64,000 nucleotides of DNA from Pseudofrankia sp. DC12 (GTDB lineage Bacteria; Actinomycetota; Actinomycetes; Frankiales; Frankiaceae), in contig NZ_KQ031391.1 in NCBI RefSeq assembly GCF_000966285.1, positions 2,577,208 through 2,641,207 on the forward strand, written 5' to 3'. The first letter of the stretch is position 1. The number at the start of each line of letters is the position of its first letter. Positions 57,149 to 64,000 of the stretch are shown in pieces. The notes beneath the pieces were generated by a model. It did not search any database and was not told the DNA's origin. It was given only the letters and a program-made list of their open reading frames with translations. Position numbers and translations under genes: made by a program.

Positions 57149-57378
57149 AAAAATGCTCCAGAACGGAGGGCGGAGGGCGGCGCGAATAGAATCGTGGTTC
57201 CGCGCTACGGCGGGTTCAGCGCGTGATCCTCGCTGGCTTGACCAGCAAACCTGGTCGCCGTTGCCGGCGCTACCGTCCACAGCCCAGCCAATAGGAACCG
57301 TATGAGGCAGAGGGAAGTGCCGTCCGATAGTTTCACCCTGGTGGCTGAGGCGTGCTCGGCCTCCCGGGAGGAGTCCGC

Positions 57379-58035
57379 ATGCCGATCAGGTCAGTGTTCT
57401 TCGACGTCGGTGAGACGATCGTGGATGAGTCTCGGGAGTATGGGACGTGGGCGGACTGGCTGGGGGTGCCGCGGCACACGTTCTCGGCGGTGTTCGGCGC
57501 CGTGATCGCTCGGGGGCTGGACTACCGCGAGGTGTTCCAGGTTTTCCGGCCAGGGTTCGATCTCCGTGCCGAGCGCGAGCGGAGGACGGCCGCAGGACAG
57601 CCTGAGTCGTTCAGCGAAGAGAACCTCTACGCCGATGCCCGGCCGTGCCTCGAAGCGCTGCGCTCCGGGGGTCTGCTGGTCGGCCTGGCGGGCAACCAGA
57701 CAGCCCGAGCGGAGACCATTCTGCGGGCATTGGATCTTCCGGTGGATCTGATCGGCACCTCGGACGGCTGGGGCGTAGAGAAGCCCTCGACGGCGTTCTT
57801 CGACCGCGTCGTCGCCGAGGCGCGATGCGCGCCGGAGGAAGTGCTCTACGTCGGCGACCGGCTCGACAATGACATCCGTCCGGCGCAGGCGGTCGGGCTG
57901 GCGACTGCCCTCGTCCGCCGAGGCCCGTGGGGGTACATCGTCGAGGACACCGCCGTCGCCAGCCGCTGTCTGTTCCACCTCGACTCCTTGGCCGACCTGC
58001 CCGAGCTGGTGCGCAAACACAACGAGGCGCGCTAA
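57379..58035 (+). CDS. HAD-superfamily hydrolase
   Basis: The ATG at 57379, preceded by GGGAGGAG, gives 218 residues. Motif I is SVFFDVGETIVDE (nucleophile Asp, but Gly where the usual second Asp acts as acid/base), motif II is in LLVGLAGNQTARAE, motif III is the Lys of GVEKPSTAFF and motif IV is YVGDRLDNDIRPAQ. The size and cap fit small-molecule phosphatases or dehalogenase-like enzymes. The missing second Asp is seen in some actinobacterial HAD proteins and may change its activity. It is convergent with the regulator gene and lies beside the lanthipeptide genes; a role there is not evident. Confidence 0.82.
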   Translation: MPIRSVFFDVGETIVDESREYGTWADWLGVPRHTFSAVFGAVIARGLDYREVFQVFRPGFDLRAERERRTAAGQPESFSEENLYADARPCLEALRSGGLLVGLAGNQTARAETILRALDLPVDLIGTSDGWGVEKPSTAFFDRVVAEARCAPEEVLYVGDRLDNDIRPAQAVGLATALVRRGPWGYIVEDTAVASRCLFHLDSLADLPELVRKHNEAR

Positions 58036-58051: not shown

Positions 58052-59365
58052 TCACGATGCCCGCGGCAATGCCTTGATCTGCTCGTCGAGGTGTCGACCA
58101 TGCTGGCTGTCCCCGAGAAGCGGCCGGGTGGCGCGGAGTCGTTCCAGGCCGGTCGCATACCAGTCGCTGGTCAACGCTGTGATCGCCTGGCCAAGGAAGT
58201 CAGCGACGCGGTCACCGTCCCGGCCATGTGCGGCGGCGAGATCCGCGAGGACGACGCTTCGCTGCTTGCTGCCGTCGGCGCCGAGTCGGTCGGCGGCTGA
58301 GGCCAGCCTGCGGGCGGCTTCCGGATGATCGCCGGTCGCGAGGGCGGCGTAGCCGGCGAAGCAGTCGAGGCGTCCGGCGTCGTAGAAGTCGAACCACGGG
58401 AGGTCGCCCGGCTGGTCGGGCAGCGACGCTTCCGCAAGGTCGATCTTGTGTCGGCTGGATGCCGCGGCGCCGCCTCGGGCTTCGATCTCGGACGACACGG
58501 CGTGTAGCCATGATCGGACGATGGGCTGGACGCCGTGCCAGCAGTGTTGCAGCGCGGCGGCGATCAGGTTCCGCGCGCTGTCGGGATCCTGGCTGAAGCC
58601 AGGGATGAAGGCCATATGACCGAGAACCGTGGCGGCGAGGGCATGGTCGCCGGCCTCTTTGCTCGCCGTGAGCGCGACCTCGTAGCAGCGGGCGGCGACG
58701 GCGGGCTGGCTGAGGTCAAAGAACGCGAGGCGTCCGGCCAGCAGTGCTGACTGGACCAGGCCGGTGGCTAGCGCGGTGCGGCGGGTGCCGCGAGCACCGC
58801 GCACGAGCGTGACGCCCAGGTGCGTGTGCGCGAAGGACGCCTCGAAGAGCAGACGTGCAGGGCTGCTCCAGTAGAGCTCCCGCTGGCCATTCGCGATCTT
58901 CGCGTAGGCCTCTGGGTCTACCGCGGCAGATCCGGCGGGCTCCTCGCCCTCGATCGACGTCACGGACAGCAACGGGCTTAGTAGCGGCAGCGCGCTCGTT
59001 CCGAGTAGCGCTCGAAGGACGGCCGCCCGGTCCCAGTCCGGACCACTACCTGCGTCAGCAGCCATGTCACCCTGCTTTCCCGTCCTGGGCTCGGGACGCA
59101 TCTTCAACTCGTCCGGCGTGAGCAGGCCCAGCTCGCTCGCCGGCTTCCCGAACACGGTCACCAGGTGTTTGCGGTACCGAGGCTCGGGGTGCCGCTCGCC
59201 GGTCTCCCACCGCCGGACCGTGTTGGCGGTCAGGCCCGTGTAGGTCTCGCCGGCGCGGTCCATCTCGATGCTGACGCGGCGGGCGACCTCGTCGTGCGAC
59301 CAGCCGCGTTGGAGCCGCTCCCAAGCCAAATCGCGGTTCGGGGGACGACGGCTGCTCGTCATCAC
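58052..59365 (-). CDS. XRE-family regulator with TPR-like C-terminus
   Basis: The 437-residue protein begins with a helix-turn-helix of the XRE type (LAWERLQRGWSHDEVARRVS, GLTANTVRRWETGERHP). A ~330-residue all-helical region follows, with repeated Ala/Leu-rich helix pairs (FDLSQPAVAARCYEVALTAS; DHALAATVLGHMAFIPGFSQ) like the TPR-type sensor of quorum or peptide-responsive regulators. It is divergent from the FxLD methyltransferase gene, 237 bp away, and is the best candidate to control the lanthipeptide operon. A peptide ligand is conjecture. Confidence 0.85.
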   Translation of the reverse strand: MMTSSRRPPNRDLAWERLQRGWSHDEVARRVSIEMDRAGETYTGLTANTVRRWETGERHPEPRYRKHLVTVFGKPASELGLLTPDELKMRPEPRTGKQGDMAADAGSGPDWDRAAVLRALLGTSALPLLSPLLSVTSIEGEEPAGSAAVDPEAYAKIANGQRELYWSSPARLLFEASFAHTHLGVTLVRGARGTRRTALATGLVQSALLAGRLAFFDLSQPAVAARCYEVALTASKEAGDHALAATVLGHMAFIPGFSQDPDSARNLIAAALQHCWHGVQPIVRSWLHAVSSEIEARGGAAASSRHKIDLAEASLPDQPGDLPWFDFYDAGRLDCFAGYAALATGDHPEAARRLASAADRLGADGSKQRSVVLADLAAAHGRDGDRVADFLGQAITALTSDWYATGLERLRATRPLLGDSQHGRHLDEQIKALPRAS

Positions 59366-59602: not shown

Positions 59603-60850
59603 ATGACCCTCGGCACCCTGGACGGCGAGAGCCTCCGTCACGCGCTGGTCGACAAGCTGGTCGCCGATCAGGACGCGAAGGGGCTTGTGCTTCCAGCCGC
59701 GGTCGAGGCGGCGATGCGGACGGTTCCCCGCGAGCTGTTCACACCGAGCCTCCCCGTGCAGGAGGCGTACGCGGACGCCGCGGTCCTCAAGAAGCGGCGC
59801 GGCGAGGAAGTCGTCAGCTCGGTGTCGGCGCCGTTTCTGATCGCGGAGATGCTCGCCCAAGCGGTGAACAGCCTCCGCGATCTGGAGGGCCGACACGTCC
59901 TGGAGATCGGCAGCGGAGGCTACAACGCGGCACTGCTGCGGGAACTTGTCGGCCCGACGGGCTCCGTCACGACCGTCGACATCGACCCCGAGGTCACCGG
60001 CAGGGCCGGCGCCTGCCTGGCGGCCGCAGGCTACCACGACGTCACGGTGGTGTGCGCGGACGCCGAACATCCGGTCGTGCCGGGCCGCCGCTACGACCTG
60101 GTCATCGTCACGGTCGGGGCGTGGGACATCCCGCCAGCGTGGCGGAATCAGCTCACCGAGGACGGCGTGCTCGTCGTGCCGCTACGGACGTTCGGGATGA
60201 CCCGGTCGTGGGAGCTACAGCGCGACGGGGATCGTCTGGTCAGTGCGAGCAACCGCATGTGTGGGTTCGTCTCGATGCAGGGCGACGGAGCCCACGAGAT
60301 GCGCTACATCGACATCGCCGAGGGCGTCCATCTGCGGCTGGACGAGGGCCAGCAGATCGACCCGACCACGATCGCCGGCCTCCTCACACTGCCCCGCGAG
60401 GAGGCGTGGGCCGGGGTGAGCCTGCCTCCCCGGACCAAGCTGGCCGACCTCAACCTGTGGCTCGCGACCCGCCTCCGCAGCGAGCCGGGAGACGTCGTCG
60501 CCCTCACCGCGCAGGAGGCAGCGATCAAGGCCGGCGGGGTCACCCCCTCCTGGCAGTTCGGCACCCCGGCCACCCTGCGGAACGGCACGTTGGTCTACCG
60601 GTCGACCCTGCGCTGGACCGACCGGCTGTTCGATCTCGGCGCCTACGCCCACGGTCCCGAGGCCGCCCTGGCGGCCGGGCGGATGGTCGAGCACATGCGC
60701 GCGTGGGTGGACGCCGGCGGCCCGCCGCCGGTGCTGCACGTGCTTCCCGCGCAGACCCCCGACGGCGACCTGCCGGCGGGGGCGGTCCTGGACAAGCGGC
60801 ACAGCCGCCTCGTCCTGGCCTTCACTCCCCAGGAGAAGGGAACCCCCTGA
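59603..60850 (+). CDS. FxLD-system methyltransferase (protein-L-isoaspartate methyltransferase-like)
   Basis: The 415-residue protein has the PIMT N-terminus (AAVEAAMRTVPRELFTPSLP; VSSVSAPFLIAEMLAQAV) and a SAM-binding core HVLEIGSGGYNAALLRELVG (98-117), VTTVDIDPEV, YDLVIVTVGAWDIPPAW. A ~190-residue C-terminal extension, typical of the methyltransferases linked to FxLD lanthipeptides, follows. Related LanSA-type enzymes methylate an Asp side chain of the modified peptide, giving succinimide and isoaspartate; a TDD-type Asp in the precursor could be the substrate. Its stop overlaps the precursor start (TGATG), so it is made with the peptide. Confidence 0.9.
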   Translation: MTLGTLDGESLRHALVDKLVADQDAKGLVLPAAVEAAMRTVPRELFTPSLPVQEAYADAAVLKKRRGEEVVSSVSAPFLIAEMLAQAVNSLRDLEGRHVLEIGSGGYNAALLRELVGPTGSVTTVDIDPEVTGRAGACLAAAGYHDVTVVCADAEHPVVPGRRYDLVIVTVGAWDIPPAWRNQLTEDGVLVVPLRTFGMTRSWELQRDGDRLVSASNRMCGFVSMQGDGAHEMRYIDIAEGVHLRLDEGQQIDPTTIAGLLTLPREEAWAGVSLPPRTKLADLNLWLATRLRSEPGDVVALTAQEAAIKAGGVTPSWQFGTPATLRNGTLVYRSTLRWTDRLFDLGAYAHGPEAALAAGRMVEHMRAWVDAGGPPPVLHVLPAQTPDGDLPAGAVLDKRHSRLVLAFTPQEKGTP

Positions 60851-60993
60851 TGGACAACCCCGAGTACGAGCTGGACCTGACTCTCGTCGACGCCGGTCCG
60901 GTCGCGAGCGGTCACGCCCTCACCACCGACGACGAATGCGGCTCGGGTGAGACAGGCACCAACGCCTGCACGACCAACGCCGACGCCAGCTGA
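60850..60993 (+). CDS. FxLD-family lanthipeptide precursor
   Basis: The 47-residue peptide was found in the gap between methyltransferase and LanB genes. Its leader contains EYELDLTLVDAGP, the family's FxLD box with Tyr or Glu in place of Phe, and the core region ALTTDDECGSGETGTNACTT has two Cys (30 and 40), nearby Ser/Thr for dehydration and a TTDDxC segment usual for the family. Two thioether rings are possible; the Asp residues 28 and 29 are possible targets of the methyltransferase. Start ATG overlaps the upstream stop. It is too short to be found by length alone. Confidence 0.9.
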   Translation: MDNPEYELDLTLVDAGPVASGHALTTDDECGSGETGTNACTTNADAS

Positions 60994-61007
60994 ACCCCCG
61001 CTAGCCC

Positions 61008-61041
61008 GGCGGGGCCCGGTCGACCTCGACCGGGCCCCGCC
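61008..61041 (+). terminator. Strong hairpin between precursor and LanB genes
   Basis: GGCGGGGCCCGGTCGA (61008-61023) and TCGACCGGGCCCCGCC (61026-61041) form a perfect 16-bp stem, the loop being almost absent (2 bases; 4-6 in practice). It lies 15 bp after the precursor stop and 28 bp before the LanB start, with no T-tract. In lantibiotic operons such stems act as partial terminators or mRNA stabilisers that keep precursor transcript in excess over the enzymes. Confidence 0.75.
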
Positions 61042-61069
61042 GACCGACCCCCGCGACACGGAGCCACCG

Positions 61070-63820
61070 ATGTACCAGGCCACCGACGCCGCGCTGATCA
61101 GGGCCGCGGCCTACCCCCAGGATCTGGCGCTGCACGCCTGGCCCGACCTGACCGACAACCAGCCCGGCCAGTGGCTGGACTGGCTGCGTCGGGTGTGGGA
61201 ACTGCCGCAGTTCGCGGCGGCCGTCGCGCAGGCCACGCCGGACCTGGCCGCCCAGATCGGCCGCGCCCTGGCCGACGAGCCAATCCAGGCCCGCAGGCTG
61301 CGACGGGTGACGGAGTCGACGGTCCGCTACCTGCTTCGGTGGACGACTCGGGCCACGCCGTTCGGCAGGTTCGCCGGCGTCGCGCCCGTCATGTTCGGTC
61401 CGCACGCGGCGGTCCGCTGGGCGGAGAACCACCACGTGGTGATCCGCCCGGACGGCCACCGGATCGCAGAGTTCACAGCCGCAGCTGAGCGGGGGGTGGC
61501 GACGCTGCCGACCGTCACGGTGGTGACGAACGCGCTGGGATTTCGCCGCGGCCGAGTGTGGGTGCTGCCCTGCGCCCGCGCTAAGGGCGACACGATGTGG
61601 GACATCGAGATCGGCCTCACCGACCCGGTGCGCGTGGCGGTCGAGGTGGCCACCGTCCCAATTACTTCTGGCGAGTTCATCGCGACGATGGCCGAAAAGC
61701 TGGCCAGCGACACCGCGAAGGCGGAGCGGTTGCTCACTGCGCTGGTGAGCGCCGGGGTACTCCTTACCGCGATCAGACCGCCGATGGTTGTGACCGACCC
61801 GGTCGCGCACCTGGCCCGTTTCAAAGCCTCTCCCGACCTGGGTACCGGGACCGCAGTCGATCTGCGCGTCGACTGCGCGGTGACGCTGCCTCCCGCCGTG
61901 GTCCGCGAGGCCGAGGAAGCCGCCCGCGCGCTCGTCGCCGTCGCGCCCCACCTGCCGGGCTGGGCCGACTACCACCGCGCATTCCTCGAACGATGGGGTC
62001 CCGGCGCGGCGGTACCAGTGCGCGACGTCCTGGCCATCCTCGGCTTTCCCGCCGGATACCGTGGCTCGCCCCGCCTCGACCCGGCAGTGCTCGCCCCCCG
62101 CGACGGGCTTCTGGCCACGCTCGCGCAGCGGTCGGCCCTGGATGGGTGCGCCGAGGTGGTCCTCGATGACGATCTGATCGAGTCCCTGCGGGGCGAGGAC
62201 GACCGGCCGCCAATCCCACACACTGAGCTGCGGTTCACCCTCGCCGCCAGCACCCTACGTGACCTTGACCGCGGTTCGTTCACCCTGACAGTGGTGAGCG
62301 GGGCCCGCCACGCGGGCGTGGCCGCCGGCCGGTTCCTGCACCTGCTCACCCCCGGCGAGCTGGACCGTTTCCGCGCCGTCTACGCCGCCCTGCCGACCGC
62401 CCTGCCGGGCGCGCAGACCGTGCAACTGTCCGGCCCTCCACTGGACCCCCGGCTCACCACCGTCGCCCGTGCCCCGGAGCTTCTGCCAGTCCTGCCCGCC
62501 GGCGACTTCCACCCCGGCTCGCCCTGGACGCTGACGGACTTGGCGATCACCGGAGACGGCCAGCGACTGTGGCTGGTGTCGTCCACAACCGGCCGGTCGG
62601 TGGAGCCGCTGTTGTTCAACAGCGTGCGCCTGCCGGCGGGCCAGCAACCGATCCTCCGGTTCCTCACCGAGATCTGGACCGCGTGGACAGCGCCCTGCGC
62701 CCGGTTCGACTGGGGCCAGGCCCGTCACCTGCCGTTCCTGCCACGGGTCCGGCGAGGCCGCTCCATCCTGCATCCGGCCCGCTGGAGCATCCTGGCGAGC
62801 TCGTTACCCGCCCGCACCGCACCCTGGCCGGAATGGAAGACCGCCTGGCAGCGCCACCGCGAACGCCAGCGGCTGCCACGCGAGGTGCTGATGGGCGAGC
62901 ACGACAGGCTGCTGCAGCTCGACCTCGACGAGAACGCCCACCTCGCGCTGCTGCGCCAGCACCTCGACCACCGGGCCAGCGCCGTCCTGATCGAGGCCAG
63001 TGGCTCATCGGAGTGGATCCACGGTCGACCCGCCGAGATCATGCTCACGCTCACTCACGCGCAGCCGGCGCCTCGCGCGGCCGCGCGCCCGGCCCGCCCC
63101 GCCAGCACCCTCGCCTACCGGCCCGGCCGCTCGCGCTGGCTGGACGCCCGGCTCGCCGGACGATCTGATCAGATCCTCGCCCGGCTCGCAGAGTTCCCCG
63201 ACCTACCCCCTGGCTGGTGGTTTCTGCGCTACCCACGACCCGAGGCCCATCTGCGGCTGCGGATACCGCTCCAGGACACCACCCGATTCGCCCAAGCCAC
63301 ATCCAACCTCGCGCTGTGGGCAGCGCAGTTGCAGGACGACGGTCTGCTGGCCGACTACACACTGGCGACCTACCGACCCGAGACCCGCCACGGCACCGGC
63401 GAGACCCTCGCCGCAGCCGAGGCGGTGTTCGCCGCCGACTCTCGCGCCGTGCTCCAGCGGTTATCCGGCGACCGGCAGGCCGCGACCGCGGCAGGGATGA
63501 TCGCCATCGCCGATGGGTTCACCAGCGACGGCGCCCGCTGGCTCGTCGACCACGCACCTCACCACAGTGGACCCCGCTTACAGTCCGCCCAGCTCGCGGG
63601 CGCCCGCCTGCCGTTTCGGGACAGCGACCTGGCCGCGGCCTTGGCCGCCTACCGGGCCCTCGCCCATAGGGACGGCCTGAATACCGATCAAATGCTGGCC
63701 GATCTGCTGCACCTTCACCACGCCCGCATGATCGGAGTCGACACCGCCTCCGAACGGCACTGCCTACGCCTCGCCCGTGCCGTGGCCCGTACCGACCTGA
63801 TGACGAGAACAACCTCGTGA
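61070..63820 (+). CDS. LanB-type lanthipeptide dehydratase, full length
   Basis: From the ATG at 61070, with GGAG upstream, the protein has 916 residues. Residues ~1-650 form the glutamylation domain (RRVTESTVRYLLRWTTRATP; FGRFAGVAPV; LSGPPLDPRL; LLFNSVRLPAGQQP), which uses Glu-tRNA to activate Ser/Thr. Residues ~680-910 form the elimination domain (GWWFLRYPRPEAHLRLRIPL; YTLATYRPETRHGTGETLAA; MLADLLHLHHARMIGVD), which removes glutamate to leave dehydroalanine or dehydrobutyrine. Both domains appear intact. It is encoded after the hairpin and coupled by GTGA to lanC. The frame upstream of 61070 crosses the hairpin and is not used. Confidence 0.92.
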   Translation: MYQATDAALIRAAAYPQDLALHAWPDLTDNQPGQWLDWLRRVWELPQFAAAVAQATPDLAAQIGRALADEPIQARRLRRVTESTVRYLLRWTTRATPFGRFAGVAPVMFGPHAAVRWAENHHVVIRPDGHRIAEFTAAAERGVATLPTVTVVTNALGFRRGRVWVLPCARAKGDTMWDIEIGLTDPVRVAVEVATVPITSGEFIATMAEKLASDTAKAERLLTALVSAGVLLTAIRPPMVVTDPVAHLARFKASPDLGTGTAVDLRVDCAVTLPPAVVREAEEAARALVAVAPHLPGWADYHRAFLERWGPGAAVPVRDVLAILGFPAGYRGSPRLDPAVLAPRDGLLATLAQRSALDGCAEVVLDDDLIESLRGEDDRPPIPHTELRFTLAASTLRDLDRGSFTLTVVSGARHAGVAAGRFLHLLTPGELDRFRAVYAALPTALPGAQTVQLSGPPLDPRLTTVARAPELLPVLPAGDFHPGSPWTLTDLAITGDGQRLWLVSSTTGRSVEPLLFNSVRLPAGQQPILRFLTEIWTAWTAPCARFDWGQARHLPFLPRVRRGRSILHPARWSILASSLPARTAPWPEWKTAWQRHRERQRLPREVLMGEHDRLLQLDLDENAHLALLRQHLDHRASAVLIEASGSSEWIHGRPAEIMLTLTHAQPAPRAAARPARPASTLAYRPGRSRWLDARLAGRSDQILARLAEFPDLPPGWWFLRYPRPEAHLRLRIPLQDTTRFAQATSNLALWAAQLQDDGLLADYTLATYRPETRHGTGETLAAAEAVFAADSRAVLQRLSGDRQAATAAGMIAIADGFTSDGARWLVDHAPHHSGPRLQSAQLAGARLPFRDSDLAAALAAYRALAHRDGLNTDQMLADLLHLHHARMIGVDTASERHCLRLARAVARTDLMTRTTS

Positions 63821-64000
63821 CGGCGGGGCAGTCGCTCACCGATGGAGCTGCCGGCATCGCGCTCCTCCACCTGGAAACCGGGGACTGGCCGGCGGCCTTC
63901 GCGACACTGCACCAGGCCGTCGCCGACAGCGTCAGCGTCGCCGATAGCGCGAGCCTCTACTACGGCGTGCCCGCCCTCGCGTTCGTCCTGGCCGCGCGTG
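63817..64000 (+). CDS. LanC-like lanthipeptide cyclase, 3' end outside window
   Basis: A GTG at 63817 overlaps the LanB stop (GTGA). The 61 visible codons read SLTDGAAGIALLHLETGDW and SLYYGVPALAFVLAAR, the GxxG-type start of LanC cyclases, in which the first inner helix pair of the alpha/alpha barrel carries this SxxxGxxGIALLH pattern. The Zn-binding Cys/His residues lie beyond the window. It would add Cys thiols to the dehydro residues made by LanB. Frame and family are clear; the rest cannot be checked. Confidence 0.85.
   Translation, partial: MTAGQSLTDGAAGIALLHLETGDWPAAFATLHQAVADSVSVADSASLYYGVPALAFVLAAR

Follow-up and report, generated by a model that had tools for sequence, protein, structure and literature searches.

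A five-gene lanthipeptide operon

The window, as we call the whole stretch of DNA analysed here, comprises 64,000 nucleotides of Pseudofrankia sp. DC12 (G000:C1:2577208-2641207) and is part of a 6.88 Mb one-contig genome. The operon lies at its 3' end and continues into the flanking DNA. The genes and other features are listed in window numbering.

58052-59365, minus strand: NsdA-family TPR-like regulator, upstream of the operon (163 bits, cut-off 75)
59603..60850, plus strand: methyltransferase (LanSA), 415 aa, a PIMT/PAMT-type protein-aspartate O-methyltransferase with a C-terminal extension
60850..60993, plus strand: LanA precursor, 47 aa, with a TIGR04363 score and kept in the branch described below
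60865..60876, plus strand: recognition box Tyr6-Glu-Leu-Asp9 of the leader, from the translation
60925..60939, plus strand: core motif Thr26-Asp-Asp28-Glu-Cys30, where ring A is predicted, with Asp28 as the predicted site of modification
60952..60969, plus strand: Thr35 to Cys40, predicted ring B, taken as the equivalent of CoiA1 Thr50-Cys55 as described in PMC9486935
61007..61042, plus strand: lanA-lanB hairpin, a 16 bp perfect stem with a 4-nt loop
61070..63820, plus strand: full-length LanB, 916 aa, glutamyl transferase and C-terminal glutamyl lyase
63817..64893, plus strand: LanC cyclase with a GTG start; the window ends at 64000 and the rest lies outside
64911-65705 (L009:7119-7913), beyond the window: fifth gene, a stand-alone glutamyl lyase with a Lant_dehydr_C match
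67177-68265, window-equivalent numbering: transposase, named by eye, 1.5 kb downstream of the operon

The ATG of lanA and the stop codon of the preceding methyltransferase gene share bases (ATGA), and lanB and lanC overlap by 4 nt. LanC is cut by the window edge; examination of the flanking DNA gave the full gene, 63817-64893, and the fifth gene sits directly 3' of it, just past the window end. A first-pass annotation had reported the coordinates and frames of the genes inside the window and the 47-residue peptide, all of which held when re-checked on the sequence. It had also named the locus an FxLD-type class I lanthipeptide operon, and the family matches bear this out. The precursor scored 43.6 bits against TIGR04363, 'FxLD family lanthipeptide' (cut-off 30, E 2.1e-11), and the methyltransferase 409.9 bits against TIGR04364, 'methyltransferase, FxLD system' (cut-off 320, residues 10-407). 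LanB matched Lant_dehydr_N (PF04738, E 3.9e-158) and Lant_dehydr_C (PF14028, E 1.1e-27), and LanC matched LANC_like (PF05147, E 1.5e-29). The components of a class I cluster, namely a LanB dehydratase, a LanC cyclase and a core with Ser, Thr and Cys, are thus all present. A different precursor gene downstream had been considered in the annotation; a pattern search of 17 kb (L009, window 57793 to ~74790), which pattern-divergent precursors would escape, found only 60850-60993. A PDB search with the precursor gave no match.

To place the operon among its relatives, loci were gathered via the methyltransferase: 30 from 196 genome-set assemblies (104 with a match) and the best 80 of 176 confirmed methyltransferase relatives in the genome_contigs set, giving 110 loci. 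A precursor was parsed by pattern in 99 of these, and the other 11, with no pattern-matching LanA beside the methyltransferase, were dropped. The loci overlap, as the same species occur in both genome sets, and distinct peptides were therefore counted. The gene order methyltransferase-LanA-LanB-LanC-lyase was found again in the relatives, which include many actinobacteria, and all five genes are intact in the Pseudofrankia locus. The four enzyme genes gave dN/dS values of 0.23-0.44 against six relatives (24 comparisons), and LanA gave 0.36-0.66 against five relatives (5 comparisons). The recurring order and the purifying selection argue that the operon is not a chance arrangement, and the constraint on its genes suggests that it is probably used.

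A search for a conserved sixth gene, such as an exporter or a protease, revealed no other neighbour family common to more than 5 of 26 stretches, some from the same species; this comparison was coarse, with the operon genes lumped into two groups and flanks mostly of up to 6 kb. The NsdA-type regulator was considered as a part of the operon and left out, as no relative of it stands beside the operon in the loci searched. An upstream ORF at window 57352-58035, named by eye as a HAD-like hydrolase, has relatives near the operon only in L042 and L077. Downstream of the lyase gene lie a repeat-rich ORF and then the transposase, both named by eye. The proximity of this transposase, at 1.5 kb, and a truncated methyltransferase copy elsewhere in the genome (L011) might be read as signs that the operon is decaying. 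This is extremely unlikely, as none of the five genes is disrupted, selection on them is purifying, and the catalytic columns of LanB and of the lyase are kept. From gene content and by analogy, we consider it very likely that the locus holds a complete and probably functional operon for a PIMT-modified class I lanthipeptide, akin to those of OlvA and CoiA1. Its five genes probably direct the synthesis of a small peptide that contains rings and a single modified aspartate.

The precursor belongs to a TxDxCGSG branch

Among the 99 parsed loci, 49 loci with 34 distinct precursors, the window's included, carry a T-x-D-x-C-G-S-G core, and the other 50 loci (45 distinct precursors) have other cores. 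Members of the TxDxCGSG branch come from Frankia, Actinomadura, Micromonospora, Salinispora and kin. The branch forms one clade in the methyltransferase tree with support 1.0; the tree labels are from an older precursor parse, and 6 of the 40 leaves under the branch ancestor lacked the core label. In the final parse four of these six (L056, L058, L059 and L074) do carry the core, L046 has no parsed LanA, and L069 has only a non-CGSG LanA beside its second methyltransferase. The precursor is unevenly distributed in Frankiaceae, with a match at E <= 0.001 in 14 of 35 genomes and at E <= 2e-9 in 12 of these 14. Identical precursors occur in L015 and L077 and in L024 and L074, the named carriers being Frankia sp. 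AgB1.9 and F. nepalensis. A literature search, with most subscription journals outside its coverage, found no paper on the branch and no assay of any of its enzymes.

The recognition box had been singled out as a notable variant, a point that does not survive comparison with the branch. The literal Phe-x-Leu-Asp box is absent, and the YELD of the window differs from it at position 1 only. At this position the 34 branch precursors have Y in 18, F in 12, G in 2 and D and R in one each; at position 4 they have N in 23 and D in 11. The 45 non-branch precursors have at position 1 F 38, W 2, A 2, and L, Y and V once each. YELD is thus a branch-typical box, closer to FxLD than the YxLN of many sister precursors, and a role of the box as a specificity switch was ruled out, Tyr being the branch norm (18/34). 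Because branch members vary at this letter, it does not define membership of TIGR04363; the curated model does. A 2025 survey already reported substitutions such as FxLD to LxLD (PMC12710340). The first-pass annotation therefore spotted the operon correctly and stressed the wrong feature. Boxes without any aromatic residue (GELN, DELN and RELN), more deviant than that of the window, occur in L056 and L058 (Micromonospora), L042 (Parafrankia sp. EUN1f) and L059 (Actinomadura atramentaria).

The two Cys ascribed to the precursor are present in the translation, and 30 of the 34 distinct branch precursors likewise have two; in the branch member L067 the second Cys is shifted. In Parafrankia colletiae an additional, shorter precursor may be encoded immediately upstream of the methyltransferase gene (L049:6104 and L016; G020:C143:15609-15713), but the N bases in this stretch could mean that it is an artefact of the assembly.

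The methyltransferase probably modifies Asp28

The dedicated methyltransferase named in the annotation was supported by fold and family as a PIMT-type enzyme. In addition to passing the TIGR04364 cut-off, the protein matched PF01135 (E 4.8e-27). The best solved match of the methyltransferase METHYLTRANSFERASE, both by sequence and by fold, was Thermotoga maritima PIMT 1dl5, with a fold match of E 1.0e-17 over 376 columns. 1dl5 is a solved PIMT with a C-terminal domain and belongs to the clade of Lee et al. (PMC10787088). At 415 aa and with this nearest fold, the window protein is a PIMT homologue with a long C-terminal extension. The same genome also carries, at L011:6931-7818 (~3.660 Mb), an FxLD methyltransferase gene that is truncated; the identity is 65% across residues 7-237, and the adjoining ORFs, named by eye, resemble recombinase/integrase genes.

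The PIMT homologues of class I lanthipeptide clusters methylate a conserved Asp after ring formation, and the ester gives an aspartimide and then mostly isoAsp, as described for OlvA among the lanthimiditides (PMC13001092). Lee et al. describe TxDGC as the motif of most PIMT-modified precursors (PMC10787088); in the window the Asp and Cys of this motif are present, and Glu29 stands in place of Gly. The Asp28 column is Asp in all 34 branch precursors, and with positions transferred from OlvA and CoiA1 this makes the Asp-derived modification proposed in the annotation probable. By this analogy Asp28 is probably converted to aspartimide/isoAsp in the product.

The conserved Asp is followed in the 34 distinct branch precursors by N in 15, G in 7, D in 6, E in 5 and K in 1, and in the 45 distinct non-branch precursors by G in 25, N in 17, E in 2 and D in 1. 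Aspartimide formation is slower at Asp-Glu than at Asp-Gly. The reaction at Asp28-Glu29 could therefore go no further than the methyl ester, or Asp27 could be involved, a column that is also conserved (Asp in 29 of 34, otherwise Ser). We regard it as unlikely that the enzyme only methylates, leaving a stable Asp methyl ester on a poor aspartimide former, or that it targets Asp27: Asp28 is the family-wide Asp, and non-Gly residues do occur after the modified Asp in the family, as a review lists Thr, Asn and Asp there besides Gly (PMC13001092). Glu is not among the residues named in that account.

The fifth gene carries a syn-lyase signature

LanB matched MibB 5ehk (E 1e-53), and its diagnostic columns read Y, R, R, E, R, H, the set of an anti-eliminating lyase. 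LanC matched MadC 8byk and NisC, with the Cys and Cys-His motifs aligned. The fifth gene product matched Lant_dehydr_C (E 4.2e-22), and it differs from the lyase domain of LanB at the diagnostic columns. Two residues have been described as marking syn-lyases, a Lys at the position of the anti-lyase Tyr and a hydrophobic one at the position of Arg826 in NisB (PMC9486935). K, R, R and E are present in all 64 aligned stand-alone lyases; the Arg826 column is Ala in 62, the window genome's protein included, and Gly and Val in one each; the LanB catalytic His column holds A, S, T or G (with one gap), never His. The window genome's protein has both the Lys and the hydrophobic residue of the coi-type extra lyase, and by its sequence the fifth gene is a stand-alone glutamyl lyase with the published syn-eliminating signature. 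Of the 37 branch loci checked (window genome plus genome_contigs set), 32 have this gene, the other five having contig ends or a broken LanB.

A structure model of the lyase (pLDDT 88.7) matched MadB 9g05 (E 6.6e-7), MibB and NisB. The same model also fitted the pyridine synthases PbtD and TbtD and a [4+2] aza-cyclase, and the NCBIfam name of the protein is 'thiopeptide-type bacteriocin biosynthesis protein'. These likenesses could suggest another reaction of the fold, such as [4+2] cycloaddition, or a structural role. Either is very unlikely given that the Lys, the two gamma-carboxylate Arg and the Glu are retained in 64/64, and Ala replaces NisB Arg826 in 62/64, as expected of syn-glutamyl elimination from the description in PMC9486935.

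A second FxLD cluster occurs in the same genome (L010:6533-14919, ~3.024 Mb). Its precursor has the box FDLD, and its enzymes are a tandem pair of FxLD methyltransferases, a LanB, a LanC and a stand-alone lyase. In this LanB the lyase domain has G and W in place of the two gamma-carboxylate Arg and Q in place of the catalytic His, whereas the stand-alone lyase is intact. Both lyase Arg are missing in 15 of 68 aligned LanB proteins, all outside the window's branch (L088, L095, L096, L102, L104, L106, L107, L109, L111, L114-L117, L121 and L010). In these clusters the stand-alone syn-lyase may carry out all of the elimination.

A conserved hairpin separates lanA and lanB

The lanA-lanB gap contains a perfect 16-bp inverted repeat, and the MFE of the gap is -44.7 kcal/mol (z -4.63 against shuffles). 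Thirty branch loci were measured at first; the stem-length count kept 28 of them after a box filter, and the covariation alignment took 28 of the 30, leaving out L061 and L064 for their long loops. The hairpin is conserved in the 28 aligned loci, and 10 of the 13 consensus pairs show changes in both partners. Branch stems are 9-18 bp long and reach at least 11 bp in 25 of 28 loci, compared with 41 of 1200 random 75-mers from the same loci. Stems of at least 11 bp were also found in 29 of 36 non-branch loci, measured over 110 nt against the 75 nt of the control. A terminator scan at lanA-lanB found no T run after the hairpin, a sigma-70 promoter scan found no promoter, an Rfam scan gave nothing near a gathering score, and a literature search on lantibiotic attenuators yielded nothing usable. 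The hairpin presumably resembles that between nisA and nisB. It is a probable attenuator or transcript end/stability element, and its likely effect, through partial termination or as an mRNA end, is to increase precursor relative to enzyme; since no T run follows the stem, we infer the attenuator rather than observe it.

Predicted rings and a model of the pathway

The rings of CoiA1 are Thr43-Cys47, Thr50-Cys55 and Cys51-Thr57, the last being D-allo-L and needing the syn-lyase (PMC9486935). Motif alignment to CoiA1 places Thr26-Cys30 and Thr35-Cys40 in the window precursor, and the equivalent of Cys51 is Gly36. A Thr/Ser-Cys dipeptide after the first core Cys is found in none of the 34 branch precursors, compared with 39 of the 45 others, and a third ring of the Cys51-Thr57 type has no counterpart in the window precursor. 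By analogy the predicted product has two methyllanthionine rings (T26-C30 and T35-C40) and an aspartimide/isoAsp at Asp28; other ring pairings are possible given Thr26, Ser32, Thr35, Thr37, Thr41 and Thr42. The product had been called not predictable to a known compound. This stands in so far as no mature product of the family is known according to PMC7268733 and the discussion of PMC9486935; OlvA and CoiA1 nevertheless allow the positions of the rings and of the Asp to be assigned by transfer.

In the proposed pathway, the leader would dock on LanB through its YELDLTLV stretch. LanB would use Glu-tRNA to form glutamyl esters on Thr/Ser of the core; the glutamate would leave by anti-elimination in the LanB lyase domain and, at one or more Thr, by syn-elimination in the stand-alone lyase. 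LanC would close the rings by adding Cys30 and Cys40 to the dehydrated Thr26 and Thr35, respectively. The methyltransferase would then methylate the ring-bound Asp28, and the ester would collapse to an aspartimide that opens mainly to isoAsp. The lanA-lanB hairpin probably keeps precursor mRNA above enzyme mRNA.

The syn-lyase is kept although the branch lacks the Cys partner of the CoiA1 syn ring. Tentatively, and with some doubt, we therefore suggest that syn-elimination acts at a new place, giving either D-allo-L-methyllanthionine in one of the rings A and B or an (E)-dehydrobutyrine that is left uncyclised (e.g. at Thr42), beside an aspartimide at Asp-Glu, Asp-Asn or Asp-Asp. Two details are of interest here, the Glu after the modified Asp and the syn-lyase kept without the Cys of its CoiA1 ring; the role of the syn-lyase when its known ring is missing is the most interesting point. 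As branch cores are small (two Cys in 30/34), they offer a simple test bed for aspartimide formation without a following Gly, for the role of the syn-lyase without its known ring and for the purpose of the products.

Comparison with known systems

Among the auxiliary enzymes found in class I lanthipeptide clusters, PIMT homologues are described as the most frequent (PMC13001092). The closest described system is the coi cluster of Streptomyces coelicolor, which like the window operon has LanA, LanB, LanC, a PIMT-type methyltransferase and a syn-glutamyl lyase (PMC9486935). CoiA1 and the window precursor share a T-x-D-x-C ring A at i+4 and a Thr-to-Cys ring at i+5, both predicted in the window. 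By the same account, the coi syn-lyase is fused to the methyltransferase, whereas that of the window operon is a separate protein, and Cys51 of CoiA1 partners the syn-made third ring, whereas the window precursor, with two Cys in all, has no equivalent. The olv cluster of Streptomyces olivaceus likewise encodes a PIMT homologue, whose target is the conserved Asp within a methyllanthionine ring; as described in PMC13001092, the cluster has no additional lyase and more rings than the predicted window product.

Families I 1-4 of Walker et al. 2020 (PMC7268733), likened here by description, also combine a conserved core Asp with a PF01135 methyltransferase. The Frankia EAN1pec (I) and Salinispora arenicola Sare_0601 clusters of Marsh et al. 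2010 (PMC3091789) come from the same genera as branch members and have, by their description, a similar layout. These two clusters possibly belong to the same branch, which may thus have been seen in 2010. The locus adds one member to a family that is known, widespread and still product-less.
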